From NCBI GenBank assembly GCA_002270565.1, contig NQMI01000006.1, positions 764,244 to 828,243 on the forward strand: a DNA stretch of 64,000 nucleotides, given 5' to 3'. Shown one piece after another: positions 2,691-19,887 of this stretch (positions within the stretch are counted from its first letter, which is position 1; each line of letters starts with the position of its first letter). The position numbers and the translations under genes are program-made. This DNA is from Stenocarpella maydis (lineage: Eukaryota > Ascomycota > Sordariomycetes > Diaporthales > Diaporthaceae). The notes below the pieces were generated by a model. It had not been told where the DNA came from, ran no database searches, and worked only from the letters and a program-made list of their open reading frames with translations.

Positions 2691-3845
2691 CTAGTAGTTC
2701 CTCGCCGGGTCAAACTTGTCGTGGTGCTGTACGTTCCTCCAGCTCGTGATCTCCTCGTCGTCCAGGACGCTCCCGTTCTGCTCCTTCTTGCGCCGGAAAC
2801 AGCCCCTGTTCTTCTTGAAGATGAAAAACAGGACGCCGAGCACCGCCACCCCGCCCACCGGCGCTGCGATGGCGATGGTGGTCGTCATCACGTTCGACCG
2901 GTTGGCCGTCTTCTCGATGCCGCCGTTGCTGTCGTCCTGCTGGAGGCTGGCTGCCGTGGCCGAGGCCGAGGGCGTGTCGGCCGCGTCGCTCGGCGAGGGC
3001 GTGCTGCTCAGGATGGACGACACAAGCGTGGTGGGCAGGGCCGCCGCCGGGTTGAGCACCGGCGGCGTCGACGCGAGGATGCCTGCTGGTGACGATGAGG
3101 GCTGGGTGGGTAGTGGCGGTGCCGGGCCGGGCACCGACGGGGTGGAAGCGACGACGACGGCTGCTGGCGATGATGAGAGCTGGGTGGGCACGGCGGCTGG
3201 CGGCAGTGAGGCGGTCCCGGTGGAAGAGATGAGGGATGAGATGGAGTCAAGCAGCGGAGTAGACGCCGGGGGCGTTGGGGTCTGGAGCACGGGGGTTGTT
3301 GGCGTATTGACCGCTGCTGCTGCTGATGTCTCCGGGACGGACGGGGGCTGCTGCTGCTGGTTTCCGCCGGCGCCACCGTTCGCGGGTGCGGTGGTCTTGG
3401 GTACTGCTGGAGTAGGCGTCGTGGAAGTTGGCGATGGTGACGCTGAAACTGAAGATGGAGACGGAGAGGAAGTCGAGCTTGAGCTTGAGCTCGAGGTCGA
3501 GGTCGAAGAAGACGACGACGACGACGAAGATGACGAAGGCGAAGGTGTGGCCTGAGCAGCGCCTCCATCACTGCCACCATCCTGACCACTCTGACCTCTC
3601 TGCCTGCCTTCCCCATCGTCCCCCTGCTTTCCCTGATCATCACTTCCATCCGAATCCGCAGCGTTGTTTGTGGGGTCATCTCCTTTGTCGTTGCTGTTGT
3701 TGTCATTGTTGTTGTTGTCGTCGTCGTTACCGCCCTTGCTGTCCGACGAGTCTGGCGGTGGCTGAGCATTCTGGCCACCTCCCAAGAGACCGCCGACCCC
3801 ATTCACCAGGCCACCCACCAGTCCTCCATTTCCAGTGTCAGACAT
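2691..3845 (-). CDS. Ser/Thr/Pro-rich single-span surface protein (Mid2/WSC-sensor-like architecture)
   Basis: This is a single-exon protein of 384 residues. From the N-terminus it has a Gly-rich stretch, an Asp/Asn/Ser-rich acidic stretch (about residues 30-90), a long Ser/Thr/Pro-rich region with runs of serine (about 100-310), one hydrophobic span (about 320-342) and a 41-residue cytoplasmic-type tail starting with a basic stop-transfer cluster (FKKNRGCFRRKK). This layout is that of fungal cell-wall stress sensors and other mucin-like membrane proteins, with the Ser/Thr region a likely O-mannosylation target. There is no convincing signal peptide, only a weakly hydrophobic Gly/Leu/Val patch near residues 8-24. 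The true start could therefore lie upstream through a missed exon, or the span may act as a signal anchor. No catalytic motif is visible. Confidence 0.65.
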   Translation of the reverse strand: MSDTGNGGLVGGLVNGVGGLLGGGQNAQPPPDSSDSKGGNDDDNNNNDNNSNDKGDDPTNNAADSDGSDDQGKQGDDGEGRQRGQSGQDGGSDGGAAQATPSPSSSSSSSSSSSTSTSSSSSSSTSSPSPSSVSASPSPTSTTPTPAVPKTTAPANGGAGGNQQQQPPSVPETSAAAAVNTPTTPVLQTPTPPASTPLLDSISSLISSTGTASLPPAAVPTQLSSSPAAVVVASTPSVPGPAPPLPTQPSSSPAGILASTPPVLNPAAALPTTLVSSILSSTPSPSDAADTPSASATAASLQQDDSNGGIEKTANRSNVMTTTIAIAAPVGGVAVLGVLFFIFKKNRGCFRRKKEQNGSVLDDEEITSWRNVQHHDKFDPARNY

Positions 3846-4830: not shown

Positions 4831-7157
4831 ACAAACCTCGGATGGACCCCCAATTCACGTGGGTTCCAGTCGTCGAGGCCTTCGACTTTTTGGTGCCGTT
4901 TATCCATCTCTGGCCCGGCGTGATAAGAGGTGATAGGAACCATCTTCATCTCAAAGCCAGCTAGAGACAATCTCCGCCCGAATCTCAGGGTCCTCGTGTA
5001 AGGCCTTTGTCCAGAATTTGGGATGCACCCAAGGGGCCAGTTTTGTGTCCAAGATTGTTATATTAGCCCTTTCAGAGTGTACCGGCAATGACGGCTCGGA
5101 ATGGCTTCAACCATTCGCGGCACATAGTCCAAGTGAATCTTCTTTGAGTCTTGGCGGCTGAAACTTTGAAACCGGCAACAGTTCATTGCTCCTGGGCGAC
5201 GATCTTTTCCTATACTCGACCGGCCCTAACTCTGTGAGCTCTACATGAGGTGCATGGGGAAAAAATCAACTTGCACTTGAGCCCTATGGCTGGAAGAGTC
5301 TCGCAGCTTCTTCCCTGGGATTACTATGTATGCGAGAAGGGGGGCATTTTAGAGGGTCTGCCAGGTAGGCGATCCAATCCGCGCTGATAGCGAGGTTCTC
5401 AAACCGGACTAACAACATTATAGCCGGTCGAGTATAAGCATTGCTGTTGCTAGGCCTTAAGATCAGCATAGCCCCAAGCGAGAGAGAGCACGATTGTCCC
5501 ATCAAAGAATCTGTGCATCACATCAGCGCCCCCTACAACCGGACTTTAGCCACTCCCAGCCTCATGTATCTCTCGACTTTCGGCAGTGCCGGATCCTCTT
5601 AAGGCCCCCGGGCTTCTGCTATAGCCAAGGATTCCGACGGCCCACGCTTAATGGACCAGTCGTTCATCCGACAATCAGCGTCATCGTCAATGGGGAGGCA
5701 TGAAGTAGGATCAAGCGCTTTCACATTGTCCGCACACCGCCCGGGCTTTGTATGTCCTCCGTAGCGGGTCGCAAGAGTCAATCGAATCAAGTAGTCTACC
5801 GGCCCACCACCGCCCATGGGTCGATATTGCATTCAGCCGCGTCCCTGACCTGTCCACAAGCGGCATCTTCTCCGCGTTTGGATAGCATATTAATAGCCAT
5901 CCACGTCGGCGGTTTGATGCGCATCATCTTCGGCTTTGGAGCAGTGGAGACTCGGAGTCGGCTCACCATGATGCTATCTACCTGTTTACCACTTCAGGCA
6001 GCGCCGGTCTCGCTCGGCGAGGATGGGAGGCGTCGTTTGGCTCTCCTCATTACCGTTGTGGCCTTTTTTGCCTCGTCCAAGTTGACATGCAAGGGGTCGT
6101 TATGACGTGTCTCGATGATGCGCAGATCATGCTTACGGCCGAATACGCCTACACATATTGTCATGCTAAGCACTGGTGCTTTATCTTCTGTTGCTCAATT
6201 CGGCTCGTGAGTCGGTCCTATTGATTGGGCTCGAAAGATTGGAATGCCACAGAAGTTCGGCAGCATAAGGCGCCGAAATACTTTTGCCTCGAACTTCCAG
6301 TCTAAAGGGTCTCCATTCCTAGCTGCAATCGTCCACCCTGGTGATCTCAGTGGAGCAGTAGAGAATGGCCATAGAAATTTAGAATAATGTGTAGATCGGC
6401 CCCCCGTATTAGCCTCGGACTTTGAAGTTTCAACGTATAGCTAAACCATGAGTCCTTGATTGCTCATCATCTATGGCGTGCTGCTTTTGGATTGATGCCA
6501 ATCTGATAAAGGATATAGCTGGTTTCGTTTTTACTCCGGTGAGAATTCAGCTTTCTATTTCAGGGAAAAACAGAAGAAGAAAAAAAAATAACAAGAAAAA
6601 AAATAAGAAGAAAAAAAAACAAGAAGAAAAAAAAATAAGAAGAGAAAAAATAAGAAGAGAAAAAATAAGAAGAAAAAAAATAAGAAGAAAAAAAAATAAG
6701 AAGAAAAAAAAATAAGAAGACCATCGACGGGGATGAAAAAAAAAAAAGAAGAAAAAAAATAAGAAGAAAAAAAAATAAGAAGAAAAAAAAATAAGAAGAA
6801 AAAAAAGAGCTGCGGCATAAAGCAAATAGCCTCGGCATATCTCAAAATTATGCGGGAGGTGGGTCAATAGTCCTGGTACTCTATAATCTCTATGCTTCAG
6901 GCGCTATATATGAACTCGATAATAAGCCGGATAGAATGTGGCCCAAGTGGGCAGAGTTTGATGATGATTCGGACTTGACTTTTTAAGCCAGAACAAAGAA
7001 GGACGTAGAAAATAATCTGGTCTGGCTCAGGAGAAATCTGCCTTTATAGAGTGAGGATGAAGGATTTGGATATGAAGCAATTTTGATGAACTTTCTCGGC
7101 CGTTTGAGAGCTAGAAGCATTGGCGCTGTTCCGCTTTATTATCATCACATCAATTGA
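4831..7157. other. gene-free, AT-shifted intergenic stretch
   Basis: Base composition drops compared with the flanking genes, and all frames are short and low in coding character. Apart from the purine-only minisatellite at about 6570-6806, nothing was recognised. Confidence 0.5.
6570..6806 (+). repeat. purine-only minisatellite (period about 14-15, AAGAAG/poly-A units plus T)
   Basis: Around 235 nt consist almost only of A and G, with a single T per unit in the pattern ATAAGAAG followed by A-runs of 6-9. The array is split once by a unique insert at about 6719-6736 (containing ccatcgacgggg) and then resumes. Frames through it encode only poly-Lys (plus) or poly-Phe (minus) and are not genes. 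Confidence 0.9.
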
Positions 7158-8579
7158 TCAAGAGCGATACGGATTGCCCCCAATACATGTTGTTTTGGGG
7201 GGTATGCCGTTGCCTTCCAAGTGAGTGTGCTCTCTCACATTCTTCGGGGTGACTATCAAAGCCACTTGCCTAACTTCCTGTAGGTACCGAGCACTACCCT
7301 GTTCTGGCGTTTGTACAAAACTGGGAAGTCGGTCGCAATCGGAGTCCTGAGACTTTCGACGCAGACCGAGCTTTCTCAGTCCGCATGTGATACTTTTCGT
7401 CCGAGGCATGAGGCGAGCCAGTGGCTGTCGGAGCGTAGGGCCGCATGCAGCCACAATGCCGATCTGCACCTCTGCAAGATTCCAGATGGACAGCGCGGTC
7501 AACAGGGCTTTTGAGATAATTAGCAAAAGGAAAGAGCAAGGGAAGCCGACCGGAACCTACTGATGCCATCCATGAGAAAGCGATCTTGCCTGGACTTCAT
7601 GTAGATATAGGCCTTGGCAATTGATCCGCTGAGACACCTGCGGGAGGTCAGCATGTGGTGAGCTCCTTGGGGCACGGTTTTCGGTCTCACAGGGCGCCGG
7701 CCATGAAGGTCAAAATTGTCAGAATCTTTGTCGACTTGCTCATTTTTAGCCGCAGAATAACCGGAACGGGGATGGCGAGCATGATAAAGTCCATTGCAAT
7801 ATCAGTTGCCATCACTGTAGGGTGCGCAGGCGGTATTAGCGTCCTCATTCCTGATGGTAGGGATGCGAGTGTGGATGAAAGATGTGCATGTATGGATGGA
7901 AACTTACAGAAGTAACCTGCCAGTGGATGATGTTCACAATAAGTCAAGTGTTCTGTCGCGCTGAAGAGGGCGAGCAAGTGAGAGCCACATTGGCCAAGCA
8001 AGAAACCAACGAAGCCGATGGTCCATGCAATGTTCATGCATATCCAGATGACCAGGAATTTTCGCAGCATCTGTGCCCTGCCGAAAATATTCCAATAGAG
8101 CAAGCACACGGAGAGCTTGATAAGACCCATGGCAACAACCCCCAGGATCAGATAGGCGAGCTCTATCTAGAGCGTAAAGAATACATAATTAGAGTTCAAT
8201 ACGCAGGAGATTGGAAACACTCGAGTCGAGGAAGATTGTTACCTGTGTAGCCTTAACTACTCTCAAGTTTGACGCGTCGGCGTCGTATATCGTGCTCTTC
8301 AAGGGGGCGGCGAGGATCTTGGTCGCAATGCCTGTGCTAATAGATCAATATGATGGTGAGCAATACTACATCAAGGCCAGCAATCGTACCGTAAATCTCC
8401 ATAACGGAGAGCCCTGACCCAAAGATCCAAGCACAAATGATGAGCCATTCGCTGGTAGTCCAATTGGGCTGGCCTTTTCCTCGCCTTGACCAGAGCCTTA
8501 GGCCAACGGCTGCAGTTGAGAAACCCTGCATCACCACCGAGCCGGCAATCAAGCCCGCAGGGTCTTCGTATGCCGCCAT
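7158..8579 (-). CDS. Pth11-like integral membrane protein (fungal rhodopsin-like domain), six exons
   Basis: This seven-span fungal membrane protein belongs to the large Pth11-like/rhodopsin-domain group, known from Magnaporthe as putative surface receptors. Proposed exons on the minus strand are 8579-8390, 8331-8243, 8166-7908, 7814-7691, 7637-7561 and 7507-7158, giving 362 residues with all phases consistent. The start at 8579 gives an N-terminus running straight into span 1 (LIAGSVVMQGFSTAAVGLRL), so there is no CFEM domain or signal peptide. Typical marks are YLILGVVAMGLIKLSVCLLYW in spans 3-4, ATDIAMDFIMLAIPVPVI in a later span, and WNLAEVQIGIVAACGPTLRQPL near the end of the last span. 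The donor at about 7908 (GTAAGT) is the least certain join; an upstream GT at 7919 is an alternative. It diverges from the secreted-peptide gene at 9224. Confidence 0.8.
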
Positions 8580-9223
8580 GATAGTTCCGGGCAATGTGGA
8601 GTTGGTAGCACAGTCTGAACAAAGAAATAAGTGCTTCGGAACCACTCGAGACTTTTCAGGTGAAAGAAAGAACAGCAGACGACAGGGCTTTGGGGGCAAT
8701 GCGTCGAGCCAGACCTGGTAACGAGGCAGATTCGATGAAATGTAACACCAGCCTATAGTTCAGGGCTGACTTCCAAAATTGAGGCAAGCATGGAGGACAC
8801 GTTTTCATTTTTGTTTTCCGGAGAACACGGAAAGCCTTGCTTACTGATGTGGTGGTTGCACACATATGCAGTCATCCTCAAATGGGGGCCATATATGCAA
8901 CGATCAGCTACCTCGGGCACCTGCCAAGGCAGAAAAGAAGCCCCACAAATTTTATTCTGGCCGAATTCATGTGGAACTCTTTTCTGCAGTGTCAAGGACT
9001 CTGGGTCAATTGAAAGGGTGTGAGGTTACAACATTGGCATGGAGGACGCAGGCAGCGCAAGGAACACAGCGGCAAGGGCAAGTCGACGTGATATAAGAAC
9101 CAAGGTCCCCCTGCTCCACACTTCATTAACGTGGTTAGAAAGCGTCTCTCAGAATGGCATCTATCCTTTGTATTTGCAAAAGAAACTCACAGAAACCTCT
9201 TGGCCCAACATCATCAACTTAAA
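8580..9223. promoter_or_regulatory. shared upstream region of the Pth11-like and peptide genes
   Basis: This 644 nt gap separates two divergently transcribed starts. A TATA-like element (atataag) lies at 9091-9097, about 130 nt upstream of the peptide ATG. No gene was found inside. Regulation from this region is inferred from geometry only. Confidence 0.35.
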
Positions 9224-9429
9224 ATGCGATTCCTCGCTCTGCTCTGCGTTTCCGTGGTAGGCCTCGTCCTCGCTGCGCCGGCTGTGGACCACAACGACTT
9301 GTCCTGTATGTTTTGTCCGACTTCACCTTTGAGGACGCCTCGATTGATCTCTTTGCAGATAATAATATCATGAAGCGTGACGGCTCTACTGAGTTTGACG
9401 CTGATCTAGGGTTTTTCAAGCGAGAGTAA
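9224..9429 (+). CDS. small secreted peptide precursor with two Kex2-type Lys-Arg sites (candidate RiPP precursor)
   Basis: This two-exon gene has exon 1 at 9224-9305, a 53 nt GTATGT...CAG intron at 9306-9358 and exon 2 at 9359-9429 (TAA), giving 50 residues. Residues 1-20 form a clear signal peptide with a Leu/Val-rich core ending in Ala-Ala-Pro-Ala. Two dibasic Lys-Arg pairs at 33-34 and 48-49 match Golgi Kex2 sites and bracket a 13-residue acidic/aromatic segment (35-47) ending in Gly-Phe-Phe. Only one residue follows the second pair. The only tyrosine (28) lies in the segment before the first pair and its codon is split by the intron. The ATG sits in an A-rich context (aaaATG). With the UstYa-type gene 1.1 kb downstream, this architecture fits dikaritin-type ribosomal peptides, although known precursors usually carry several core repeats. 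A peptide pheromone or small effector is the alternative. Function is inference. Confidence 0.7.
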
Positions 9430-10536
9430 ATGGGCGAGATTTGCTTAATCGGCCAGAATCTTGGTCTGCGGGAAGTGAGCAAGTCCACGGCTAGATAAGA
9501 GCATGTATTTCCAAAGTCATTCGAGTAAGGCCGCTTGCGTGCGAGGTGCCTGTGTTGGCTCAGTCATTGGCAAGCCGCAACATATCATTGTAACTCGCGT
9601 AAGGATCAGTCATCAATCGATTACGCAGGGAAGAGGCCCCGATAATTAAGGCGGATACCTTGTTGAACGCTCGTTGCCTCTGTCTGGTGTAACTAGGCGT
9701 CCCATGGGGTTGTACTATTTCAGCCGCGCTGCTGCCGCCTTTGGTCCTTTTGCAATCTCACATTATGCATGCGTTGTTCGGGCGTACATGAAACTGCATT
9801 GCCGTTACCAGTAATATCAGGCTCCAGTTGGTAGCCTTACGAGGCAACGGCAGAATATGGCAGCGATCATCAAATTCAAAGGACGAAATATCTAGTTCGA
9901 ACAACTCCTTGTTCGGGCGTTAGGCGCTTCAGCAATTTAAAAGCGGGGAGACCAACCAACAGTTCCAAGAGGATTTGCATACTTGATACGTCAGACTGTG
10001 CCACCGCACCAGACCGGGTCCAGTAGTACGGAGTACATGTTTGCAATGGAGTGGGTGTTAAGGCAGTGTTACTTCGCTCAGATGTGGTGTGTCCTGTTTC
10101 GGTCTTTCACATGTCTGTCAGAGCTGAAAGACAAGGCCCACTTCTAGGAGACCATCTATAGATCAGAACATCGCTTACCCAGCTGCGTGGGGGCCGTTTG
10201 TAGATCCCGAGGTTACATATGTAGGCTCCAAGCTGACCATGCAGATGAATCCGCCGCTGATCATTGTGGTCAACAGAAGCTGATTGGACAAAGGTCGAAA
10301 ACAGACAGGCAAATCACACCGAGAGGACTCGTTGTGCCACTCGCAAGGCGCCATGAGGCTAATTGTGCCCCAGGTGATGCGCCCCTCCAGCCCTCATGGA
10401 CCACTATCACTACTGTATTGCCAGTATACTTATTAGCGGGGATAAAAGTGTCTTCGATTTAAAGTATGATGTTCAATTAAAAAATCATTCTAGTCCTTCT
10501 TCGAATATCAGCTTCAAGACTCATTTTGCCATCGCC
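9430..10536. other. intergenic between peptide precursor and UstYa-like gene
   Basis: AT-rich sequence with no gene seen. It probably holds the 3' end of the peptide transcript and the promoter of the UstYa-like gene; an AT-rich block lies at about 10440-10500. Confidence 0.45.
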
Positions 10537-11489
10537 ATGGGTAAAGCAGCGTATTCCCCACTCAGATCCGACGATGACGGCCTAGAAGATTCATCAATAG
10601 CATCCTATCAGGTGACACTATGGCGTCGCAGATTTCTTATCACCGTCACACTTTTCGCTTCGGTCATGCTTCTTCTCTCGGGAGTCGCCATGAACAGAAT
10701 GCAGTATGCACCGCACTGCTCTTCGCCCACGGCTGAGTTGATTGTACCCTACTGTAGGTATACCTGTCTCATCTGATCATAGATTAGAGAACTCACCGTG
10801 CATGATATTGGTCGGAGTTGACAAGAGCAACAAGCCCCCGCCCCGGTACGCTATGTCAACAAATGGCTCATGAACGATCCATCATCGTCGAGGTTCTCCG
10901 GGGCGCCACGGCCGGAGCTCGATCAAGCCTGGCACGAGATGCTCGATGGGACGATGATTCGCTTGTCTGACGAGGAGCTCCTTGAGGCCAACAATGCGAC
11001 TTCTGTCAGAGCAAAAAGCGGTGGATATATCGGCGCACTCGGGGTGTCGCACTCGTTGCACTGTCTCGTAAGTACCACGGCTGGTGTGCAGGGCATATCT
11101 CGTACTCTACCGTGATTTTCGGTTCCCGGAGTCCCCCAAGACGCCTTATATTCGTATTATGACTTCCATGAAGCCTACTAACACTGAACTCTGAATAGAA
11201 GAGAATCAAGCAGTACTTACACCCAGAGTACTACTACAGCGACAACGATACCGACTGGGATGAAATTCATGAGCATGTAAACCACTGCCTGGAGTCCCTA
11301 CGACTACAATTACTATGCTCGGCCGACCTCAACCTCTGGACCTTCAAGTGGACAGAGCACAGCCGGGTGAAGCCGGCAAATCATATCCCACAACAACACG
11401 TATGCGTAGACTGGGACGCATTACACAGTTGGATGCAGGAAAGGGCAGTTAACTGGAATGAGGTAGTCAATCCTGCTGATAATTCGTGA
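10537..11489 (+). CDS. UstYa-like protein (DUF3328), three exons
   Basis: Proposed exons are 10537-10753, 10835-11067 and 11199-11489, giving 246 residues, normal for the family, with GT-AG introns of 81 and 131 nt. The second intron has a clear branch-like actaac before its acceptor. After a charged N-terminus there is one membrane span (about residues 33-52). The family signature follows: HSLHC at 145-149 and HVNHC at 176-180, the paired HxxHC motifs. The C-terminal part carries HVCVDWDALHSWMQER, matching the usual H-x-C-x-(D/N)-(F/W)-D ending. Known UstYa/UstYb relatives act in the secretory pathway as oxidative cyclisation or tailoring enzymes of ribosomal peptides (ustiloxin, asperipin, phomopsin types) and in cyclochlorotine synthesis. 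The adjacent Lys-Arg peptide gene is the obvious candidate substrate, which is inference. The region downstream has no second copy. Confidence 0.85.
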
Positions 11490-11650: not shown

Positions 11651-12807
11651 TTGCTCCCCCTCCTCCCCCAAGTCCATAGAAAACACGGCATCAGTATGGT
11701 GATGCAGTCCCCCTTAGCCCTATGAAGACTATTCAAACCATACAGTAAATTCATATTTAAGTTACATATTCCAAGCGTCTGTGGTCCCATATGGAAGTTT
11801 TGATGCACGGTTTATAGCCCCAATTTATGTAATTTGCATCCTTTGGCACGACGCATTCACGTGGAGGTTATACTGAAATGTGCCGTCTAGGTCGGCAGGT
11901 GAATGTTTCAACACAACTAGACTGAGAAATGGCAATGGGGTCAACAAGCGAGCGAAACCGAGCCCCGTTCCACATCCACGATTTGGGGGACGATCTGCAG
12001 GCCAAGCAGTGATTCTAGAGGCCACCAAGGGCTCCCGAGACCATCATGGCGGGTTGGCAGCAACGCGTTGCAACCCCCTCCCCCTCCTATCTCACAAGCC
12101 CGTGGTGAGACGCGCCTAGCTTATTGGCACCGCTTTGCGGGGACTATCAGGCTCAGCCTCAGAGATTAAGGTTCACCACAGCCACGGACATTCATGGGCG
12201 GGCTTGGGCAACTGCTCGATAACAAAACAAGGCCAATCCATCTAGTTCATCTCGTATCCTAATGGATTGGCAGCGGGCGCTGGTGCACATGCCACCATCA
12301 TCCCATGTACCTACGAACCACACTGCTGGGTCCTCGTGATGCACCTACAGCTCCCAGCTTGCGGGGCTCGCAACATATAGCACACCTGGAGAGCGCCATC
12401 TTGACCGTTATCAGAGAGGCGGTTGTGAGAGTTGCTCGGCGTGGCGCCCGGCAACATTTGAACTCTAATGCATTTTCTCCGGCACGCCGCAGCCCCTTCA
12501 GTACCTATTCTCCCACCAGCCCTGCCCGCCCAGCAGCACCCTCCTAGAGCCCCGGCCCCACGACTCCCGGAGGGATCGACAAAGCTATATATCGTATAAT
12601 GTAGTTCCCAAGCTACCGGCATGGGCCGCGCAGCCTTGCAGGGGTGTGTGCAGCCAAGTGCCGCTGCATTATTAATCTGGACTAACACATGTGCATAGAA
12701 ATCTACAGAATCTCGATGTCAATCATACTTCGCAAATGGCAACCTACCTCCTGGAGGGAGACAATGCATAACTGCAATGCCCGTTTCAAAATTGCCCGGT
12801 TGCATTA

Positions 12808-12831
12808 AAAAAAAAAAAAAAAAAAAAAAAA
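12808..12831. repeat. poly-A run
   Basis: An uninterrupted run of about 24 A residues in intergenic DNA. Confidence 0.9.
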
Positions 12832-19294: not shown

Positions 19295-19887
19295 TGTCGG
19301 TTGTTGTCTTGCTGGTGCAGGTGGCAACCATCGACAGTTGAAGAAGAGCAGAAGGAACCTCGGGGGGGGNNNGGGGGGGGGGGGTTGAGGTTATTAATCA
19401 GCTCCGATGTAACAGCGCGCAGCATCCTCTGTATTCTCTCCGTTGCCCACTGGAAAACGGCCCTTGGTATGCTTCGTGTCACCGGGCCGATGAACTCGAT
19501 AAGCTCGCGACCAGCTCGGCTGGGCCCTGCAGCGGTGGCATTCTGTTCGCCCGAGCATGTCGCCGTGCGGATAGATAACATGCACTTCCTCACTCGGGGA
19601 TGCCCGGCAATCTCCAAGATCGGCACCGCAAAACGGCGGCAACCATGTGGAATCTCCAACAGCTTTGGAATACGGGCCCGCGCCCTATTGGGTGCCAGGC
19701 TCCAGTCCAGCATCACGTAAGATGGTTGAGATCCCCTCCCCTCCACGCAGATACCGCCAGCCCCGGTACAAGAGACGGCAAGGGGGTGGGCGGCCTTGAC
19801 GTCCTATAGCGCACAGGCTACTGCTTCTCGTACAACCACGCGCGGCACAACTCACCATTGGCGAGCTCGCCAAAGCTTCAGGTCGAT
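19295..19887. promoter_or_regulatory. divergent promoter with GATA-factor (AreA/NIT2-type) sites
   Basis: The gap lies between the permease start (minus) and the oxygenase start (plus). HGATAR consensus sites are seen at 19497-19502 (cGATAA) and 19573-19578 (aGATAA). In ascomycetes such sites bind the nitrogen regulator AreA/NIT2, which would suit genes for using nucleobases as nitrogen source. Binding is inference. A homopolymer G tract containing three undetermined bases interrupts the region. Confidence 0.42.
19362..19384. other. poly-G tract with three-base gap (NNN)
   Basis: Positions 19370-19372 are N inside a run of G on both sides. The true length of this tract is therefore unknown. 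Confidence 0.95.

Follow-up and report, generated by a model that had tools for sequence, protein, structure and literature searches.

Whether a fungal ribosomal-peptide pathway can be reduced to one precursor, one core and one UstYa enzyme is the question raised by a locus of Stenocarpella maydis. The DNA analysed, referred to as the window, is a stretch of 64,000 nucleotides (C268:764244-828243) in an 880 kb contig of a 53.5 Mb genome of 312 contigs. It contains a short secreted-type precursor with Lys-Arg (KR) sites beside a complete UstYa/DUF3328 gene, and a homologous pair is present elsewhere in the genome, on contig C299. The favoured explanation, held with better than even confidence but well short of certainty, is a UstYa-type ribosomal-peptide locus in minimal form, with one core and one enzyme. 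Judged by its sequence, the locus probably represents a known family of fungal peptide pathways in a very small form, limited to one peptide. By analogy, this UstYa would act on this precursor, and the choice of the segment modified is argued in the same way.

The precursor gene

A sequence-only reading of the window had described a spliced 50-residue gene with a signal peptide and two Kex2 sites at positions 9224-9429. Enumeration of splice forms and comparison with the C299 homologue upheld this description, coordinates included. The translation, MRFLALLCVSVVGLVLAAPAVDHNDLSYNNIMKRDGSTEFDADLGFFKRE, is laid out as a signal peptide, an N-terminal segment, KR, a single 13-residue segment and a terminal Lys-Arg-Glu. 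In window coordinates the features are:

9224-9429, + strand: precursor peptide gene, 50 residues, two exons (9224-9305 and 9359-9429); splice enumeration and C299 homologue
9224-9277, + strand: predicted signal peptide, residues 1-18, cleavage near A17/A18; hydrophobicity heuristic alone
9306-9358, + strand: intron of 53 nt, phase 1, within the Tyr28 codon; splice enumeration, position and phase as in the C299 copy
9373-9378, + strand: Lys33-Arg34, Kex2-type site 1; sequence reading
9379-9417, + strand: candidate core of 13 residues, DGSTEFDADLGFF; DGS, DAD and the last Phe retained in the C299 copy
9418-9426, + strand: Lys48-Arg49-Glu50, Kex2-type site 2; sequence reading, KRE retained in the C299 copy

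The intron starts with GTATGT and ends with TTTGCAG, and a YTRAY-like TTGAT is visible by eye near its 3′ end. Thirteen open single-intron forms end at the stop codon of the precursor. Only the chosen form combines the GTATGT donor with a CAG acceptor, and it keeps the signal peptide, Tyr28 and both KR sites. Tyr28 is the sole Tyr of the precursor and lies in the N-terminal segment (approximately PAVDHNDLSYNNIM), within a conserved LSY. There is no cysteine after the signal peptide. One segment lies between the KR sites, and no further copies of the core were found in a three-frame translation up to position 10500.

The UstYa enzyme

The neighbouring gene had been read as a DUF3328 protein with both HxxHC motifs, 1.1 kb away and in the same direction. 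The gene model agrees, with HSLHC and HVNHC as the two motifs:

10537-11489, + strand: UstYa/DUF3328 enzyme, 246 residues, exons 10537-10753, 10835-11067 and 11199-11489; PF11807, gene model and homologues
11050-11064, + strand: first HxxHC, HSLHC; invariant at both His and at the Cys across a 21-row alignment
11274-11288, + strand: second HxxHC, HVNHC; Cys invariant and both His at least 90% conserved in the 21-row alignment

The window enzyme is a member of the UstYa family. The search against PF11807, which the sequence-only reading had proposed as a check, was passed at E=1.1e-42 with 146.8 bits (cut-off 25), covering profile positions 9-220 of 220. Seven open splice forms exist for the gene; the chosen one has a GTAAGT donor in intron 2 and is consistent with the homologues. 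Among 374 candidates, 49 homologues were recovered at E<=1e-10. Most of the named ones are approximately 41-56% identical to the window protein, and their source fungi belong mostly to the Sordariales and Xylariales. These relatives, the introns and the gene content suit a filamentous ascomycete, probably of the Sordariomycetes. Higher values are seen for P0005 and P0006 (80% over the part covered) and for P0047 (79% over 35% of the query). Both HxxHC motifs are exact in 43 of the 49; the other six comprise three short sequences (137-192 residues) and three of near normal length, P0033 (243 residues), P0045 (258) and P0049 (235).

The AlphaFold model of the Sordaria homologue P0001 has a helix at residues 26-65, mostly well predicted, and motif-bearing helices at 147-163 and 176-196, within a model of low overall confidence (mean pLDDT 65, pTM 0.31). 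A search of NCBIfam with the window enzyme returned nothing meaningful, and none of the PDB sequences matched at E<=1. Viral contigs gave 28 pattern matches with no UstYa relatives among them, as expected for a fungus.

The UstYa repertoire of the genome is rich, with 62 PF11807 matches, gene pieces included, on 27 contigs. In this exon-level search only two matches fell on C268, both of them pieces of the window gene. The earlier statement that no second UstY was recognised nearby is supported, as no second UstYa was listed on this contig.

The second copy on contig C299

Among the UstYa loci extracted from the genome, the nearest to the window UstYa is that on C299 (locus L039), with 36-66% identity in three tblastn pieces, the longest at 49%. 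Identity in the remaining loci that matched at E<=1e-5 does not exceed 36%, apart from two short pieces (18 and 23 residues) at 44-52%. The UstYa genes on C87, C51, C1, C23, C274, C120 and C162 are among those outside this comparison and likewise outside the search for precursors beside UstYa genes. The C299 pair consists of the following:

L039:3188-3107 and 3054-2987, - strand: C299 precursor, 49 residues, MRFVALLRLSAGVVALPAPTVRHDALSYSDVLKRDGSVPLDADPAFKRE; DNA beside the UstYa relative
L039:4435-5387, + strand: C299 UstYa copy; HALHY replaces the first HxxHC, frame change in the last exon

The intron of the C299 precursor, 52 nt in length, has the same position and phase as that of the window copy and splits the same Tyr codon. 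The two precursors are 55% identical as proteins and retain KRDGS...DAD..F-KRE; Tyr28 with its preceding LS is also common to both, as are DGS, DAD, the last Phe and KRE. The proposed conservation of the peptide gene beside UstYa homologues is therefore borne out, but only within the genome of the fungus itself. Aligned locally, the pair scores 119, against a mean of 19.7 (standard deviation 3.8) and a maximum of 42 in 5000 shuffles. The part after the signal peptide scores 86 on its own (shuffles: mean 17.2, standard deviation 3.5, maximum 34). A blastn comparison of a 3.7-kb window stretch with the 10-kb L039 matched the second exon at 75% over 56 columns (E=2e-4) and the first at 67% over 99 columns (E=0.03).

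Conservation is higher in the coding parts of the precursor than in its intron and flanks. Identity is 62% and 69% in the two exons, against 52% and 49% for shuffled sequence, and the corresponding values are 54% and 47% for the intron, 54% and 50% for the 5′ flank, and 50% and 51% for the 3′ flank. Non-synonymous and synonymous divergence (dN and dS) of the precursor pair was estimated at 0.29 and 1.34 by NG86 and at 0.38 and 0.75 by YN00, with dN/dS ranging from 0.2 (NG86) to 0.5 (YN00). Exon 2 of the UstYa pair gave a dN of 0.17 and a dS of 1.50 (NG86; no YN00 value). This comparison establishes the precursor as a real gene, constrained to some degree: C299 has a homologue of it next to a relative of the UstYa, and the coding parts are the better kept.

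The C299 enzyme looks decayed, and probably is, judging from the loss of the Cys of its first motif (HALHY against HSLHC in the window) and from a protein end that lies in another frame. Precursor and UstYa are divergent on C299, whereas the window pair runs in the same direction. A gene with an Sfi1 domain occupies L039:1-1998.

Chance occurrence of the precursor

The background of comparable reading frames was estimated with a rule requiring a signal peptide (heuristic), two dibasic sites with the last near the C-terminus, and no more than one intron. The 64-kb window, scanned for products of up to 160 residues, yielded two start sites, the second of which lies inside the sugar-transporter gene. 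Six were obtained from 33 partly overlapping UstYa loci totalling 223,247 bases (up to 300 residues). As this background amounts to about one start per 40 kb, both strands included, a chance start within 1.5 kb of the UstYa gene and on its strand is unlikely but not impossible. The first signal-peptide threshold overlooked the C299 precursor (h-region 1.86 against a cut of 1.9). With looser limits it is recovered, as is the window precursor, among 16 rows that include background and come from 264,465 bases. The only occurrences of the pattern KR(D)G...KR..stop in the window and 34 partly overlapping UstYa-locus stretches (14 short, 20 longer) are those of the two precursors.

Other tests are less informative. 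The proposed frame has the best codon statistics of the six in each precursor exon, and a score as high is found in 3% of 2471 overlapping stop-free intergenic stretches. The codon test discriminates poorly, since the certain UstYa gene itself scores badly, and it was set aside. Pfam gave no match for the precursor. In whole-genome searches each of the two precursors retrieved itself only, as did the window DNA at 9200-9440. This silence on further copies means little, because the known relative was missed in both directions.

Known fungal peptide pathways

The locus shares with the ustiloxin and phomopsin dikaritins a signal peptide, a KR-flanked segment and a DUF3328 enzyme with a double HxxHC. 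It had been called dikaritin-type, and the name fits the precursor (signal peptide by heuristic, KR sites), the UstYa gene on the same strand, and the pairing of the two, found again on C299. In the strict sense it does not fit in the matter of repeated cores or of a recognised tyrosinase, methyltransferase, peptidase or peptide transporter in the cluster. The Tyr for an ether cross-link in the core is absent from the C-terminal segment but present, as Tyr28, in the other segment. The ustiloxin cluster, in contrast, has 16 cores, two UstYs, a tyrosinase, a methyltransferase and more (PMC6514808), an equipment not found at the window locus. The window locus may function as dikaritin loci do, yet it has no repeated core.

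The asperipin-2a cluster (aprA, aprY, aprT, aprR) is similar in having one UstY homologue next to its precursor, and aprY is essential and the proposed agent of the asperipin-2a macrocyclisations (PMC6514808). However, aprA contains repeats (PMC7329392), whereas the window precursor has one segment. The asperipin core FYYTGY is rich in Tyr, unlike the Tyr-free window segment, and its locus includes a reductase and a transporter, whereas no reductase or peptide exporter was recognised at the window locus.

The secretory precursors known as Kex2-processed repeat proteins (KEPs) are also cut at KR and often lie near DUF3328 genes (22% of 7878, at a mean distance of 3.09 genes; PMC7329392). Surveys of KEPs demand either tandem repeats (PMC7329392) or a minimum of four fragments and of three repeats (PMC6339444); the window precursor has neither and would escape them. 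CctR and other DUF3328 copper enzymes resemble the window enzyme in PF11807, in HxxHC...HxxHC and in a hydrophobic segment near the N-terminus. CctR is a membrane-associated, dimeric binuclear copper enzyme which needs O2 and electrons; its substrate for hydroxylation differs in being a non-ribosomal cyclic peptide (PMC12435403).

Clans R1 and R2 of ribosomally synthesised and post-translationally modified peptides in lichens include some clusters with repeat-free genes for a signal peptide and Kex2 sites, and a single core was raised by the authors as one possibility for these (PMC12048977). Within the accessible portion of that report no conserved single-core precursor is given, and R1, unlike the window locus, has tyrosinase and methyltransferase genes. 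The open-access literature searched yielded no description of a single-core UstYa precursor, which is no claim of absence from print, as most subscription journals lie outside it.

Multi-core precursors are present in the same genome. One on C240 (start at C240:320604, minus strand; locus L044, C240:311000-320999) is of the secreted type, contains five copies of IPWTKNYGEY, all a short way behind KR or RR, and lies amid approximately six UstYa genes (C240:316-331 kb). Another on C219 (locus L042, C219:136500-146499, at about 5500-5800) carries KR-spaced VDGTQIAEGW three times and lies near three UstYa genes; read by eye from the DNA, it looks two-exon, with the start MKFFLISLASIGMIGQVMALPRA. 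Because the genome also holds these multi-core precursors beside UstYa genes, the window single-core gene is distinct from them in type.

Proposed mechanism

In the proposed pathway the precursor would enter the endoplasmic reticulum via its signal peptide. By analogy with CctR, the two HxxHC motifs of the membrane-anchored UstYa would hold a luminal binuclear copper centre, at which C-H bonds of the peptide would be oxidised to give a cross-link or a hydroxylation. Before or after this oxidation, Kex2 would cleave after K33R34 and K48R49 and a Kex1-type carboxypeptidase would trim the product, so that the secreted form would be a modified DGSTEFDADLGFF peptide some 13 residues long. The N-terminal segment (approximately PAVDHNDLSYNNIM), with its Tyr in the conserved LSY, may be modified instead or as well, DGSTEFDADLGFF being modestly favoured as the modified segment.

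Neighbouring genes

Upstream of the precursor lies a divergent gene that the sequence-only reading had overlooked:

7158-8579, - strand: rhodopsin-domain membrane protein gene (PF20684), gene model; approximately 362 residues (350 with another last acceptor)

The gene is intact and matches the Pfam "fungal rhodopsin" domain at E=3.9e-29. The upstream region is common to this gene and the precursor, with 644 bp between the start codons. For one of its exons the best four relatives are 81-86% identical over about half of the exon query. The longest contig listed for the rhodopsin relative P0050 (five contigs) has 115,423 bases, a figure identical to that for the UstYa relative P0005 (two contigs). 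This agreement suggests, without proving it, a shared contig, and the genes flanking the precursor have probably been kept together in that relative. Membership of the rhodopsin-domain gene in the precursor/UstYa module is tentative. A possible remnant of the start of a rhodopsin gene at L039, about 3740-3810 (+ strand), is a hint only: 24 aligned residues at 50% are no better than noise by tblastn (E=0.47), blastn aligned 31 bp at 84% (E=0.003), and there is no Pfam match.

The divergent upstream regions of the window and C299 precursors share three words of 10-12 bases, which is too weak to be claimed as a shared promoter signal; among 2000 random pairs, 3.8% had at least three shared words and 4.2% had one word of at least 12 bases. 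No word of at least 9 bases was common to three of the four upstream regions compared.

Pfam was applied to 21 window stretches (7, 10 and 4, some of one gene), a subset of the open reading frames of the window, and no tyrosinase or peptidase was found among them. That no tyrosinase, methyltransferase or transporter was recognisable within several kb had been noted from the sequence. The ten stop-to-stop frames tested from 2.7 to 15.0 kb, one of them the last rhodopsin exon, showed no tyrosinase, methyltransferase or peptidase. A sugar-type transporter of the major facilitator superfamily lies at 1.1-2.5 kb, about 7 kb upstream of the precursor; it is not obvious as a peptide exporter. Other neighbours are a PRK/uridine-kinase-like protein, a purine-cytosine permease and a 2OG-Fe(II) oxygenase (20-21 kb). 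Farther off in the window are cellobiose-dehydrogenase-like, BUD23-like methyltransferase (36 kb) and isocitrate-dehydrogenase-like proteins. Ambiguous bases, translated as X, occur at about 19370-19395, near the start of the permease. The precursor/UstYa locus lies within a stretch of lower G+C content (45-49% at 6-12 kb), between an A-rich tandem array (16- or 47-base unit) at 6566-6806 and a run of 25 A at 12807-12831.

The sequence-only interpretation is thus supported in part; besides the rhodopsin-domain gene, it had missed the second copy and the two multi-core precursors.

Alternative explanations

Several observations weigh against a minimal UstYa pathway. The C-terminal segment DGSTEFDADLGFF contains no Tyr or Trp, whereas the ustiloxin, asperipin and phomopsin cores contain residues of this type. 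No accessory enzyme for a peptide pathway was recognised in the neighbouring stretches put to Pfam. The estimate of constraint on the precursor is based on 49 codons, and YN00 indicates the weaker constraint. The protein collection held no precursor relative with three shared 5-residue words, a weak negative, since the word search requires that many shared words as well as annotated small genes. The precursor on C299 has an intact open reading frame despite its damaged UstYa neighbour, which may reflect recent decay, rescue by another UstYa or a precursor independent of the enzyme, and which speaks somewhat against a strict dependence of the one on the other. Linkage in two places may also have been inherited from the duplication of one segment.

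A variant compatible with the minimal pathway is that UstYa modifies the Tyr28 segment (PAVDHNDLSYNNIM) and the 13-residue segment serves as a follower or recognition tail. This is a genuine possibility, although the odds are against it. Tyr28 and its preceding LS are retained in both copies, but DGS..DAD..F is equally well retained. The cores of multi-core precursors are the segments between KR sites and the segment after the signal peptide is usually a leader, which also speaks against the variant. In its favour, Tyr occurs in 65.6% of DUF3328-linked KEP repeats compared with 38.2% otherwise (PMC7329392).

The precursor may alternatively give rise to a linear, unmodified Kex2-processed signalling peptide, similar to a pheromone or hormone, with the UstYa acting elsewhere or the linkage merely inherited; this is unlikely, but not to be neglected. 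The architecture equals that of a one-repeat pheromone-type precursor, and single-repeat alpha-pheromone precursors exist (PMC6339444). A C-terminal segment free of Tyr and Trp and the intact C299 precursor beside a damaged enzyme are consistent with such a peptide, for which the seven-helix protein of the divergent rhodopsin-domain gene might even serve as a partner. A linear peptide is more difficult to reconcile with a precursor that adjoins UstYa in two places. Furthermore, putative alpha-mating factors and pheromones almost never occur with DUF3328 genes, with three exceptions (PMC7329392), and the precursor lacks a Cys pair, unlike the known Sordariomycete alpha-pheromones with two conserved Cys (PMC6339444).

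It is quite improbable that the gene encodes a small secreted protein of the effector or cell-wall kind, made with a propeptide and having nothing to do with peptide oxidation. KR propeptide sites are found in many small secreted fungal proteins, but here no Cys follows the signal peptide, just 13 residues separate the propeptide from the last KR, and both copies of the precursor have a UstYa gene next to them. That the reading frame is a chance product and no gene is scarcely credible: the lack of a homologue in the protein collection and the weak codon signal would suit it, but it is already contradicted by a two-exon homologue on C299 with the same intron phase and with coding parts better kept than intron and flanks.

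Significance

A real single-core precursor with a retained second copy, next to a single UstYa gene, offers a very small system in which to test what a lone UstYa is capable of. Should its substrate be the C-terminal segment, the enzyme would work on a Tyr-free peptide, unlike the cross-links of ustiloxin, asperipin and phomopsin. Two published surveys of fungal Kex2-cut peptides select for repeats (PMC7329392, PMC6339444), and single-core precursors are thereby excluded by design. Further loci may be sought by the rule of a signal peptide, an intron and a KR-segment-KR-E stop next to PF11807.

A bolder proposal, put forward only tentatively and regarded as rather doubtful, is that of an overlooked fungal single-core class. 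Its members would combine a 50-residue precursor with a UstYa-type copper enzyme acting on a core free of Tyr and Trp, by a new Asp/Phe chemistry on DGSxxxDADxxF, and with a divergent seven-helix sensor or exporter. Such a class, if true, would be invisible to repeat-based genome mining and so could be common in Sordariomycetes.

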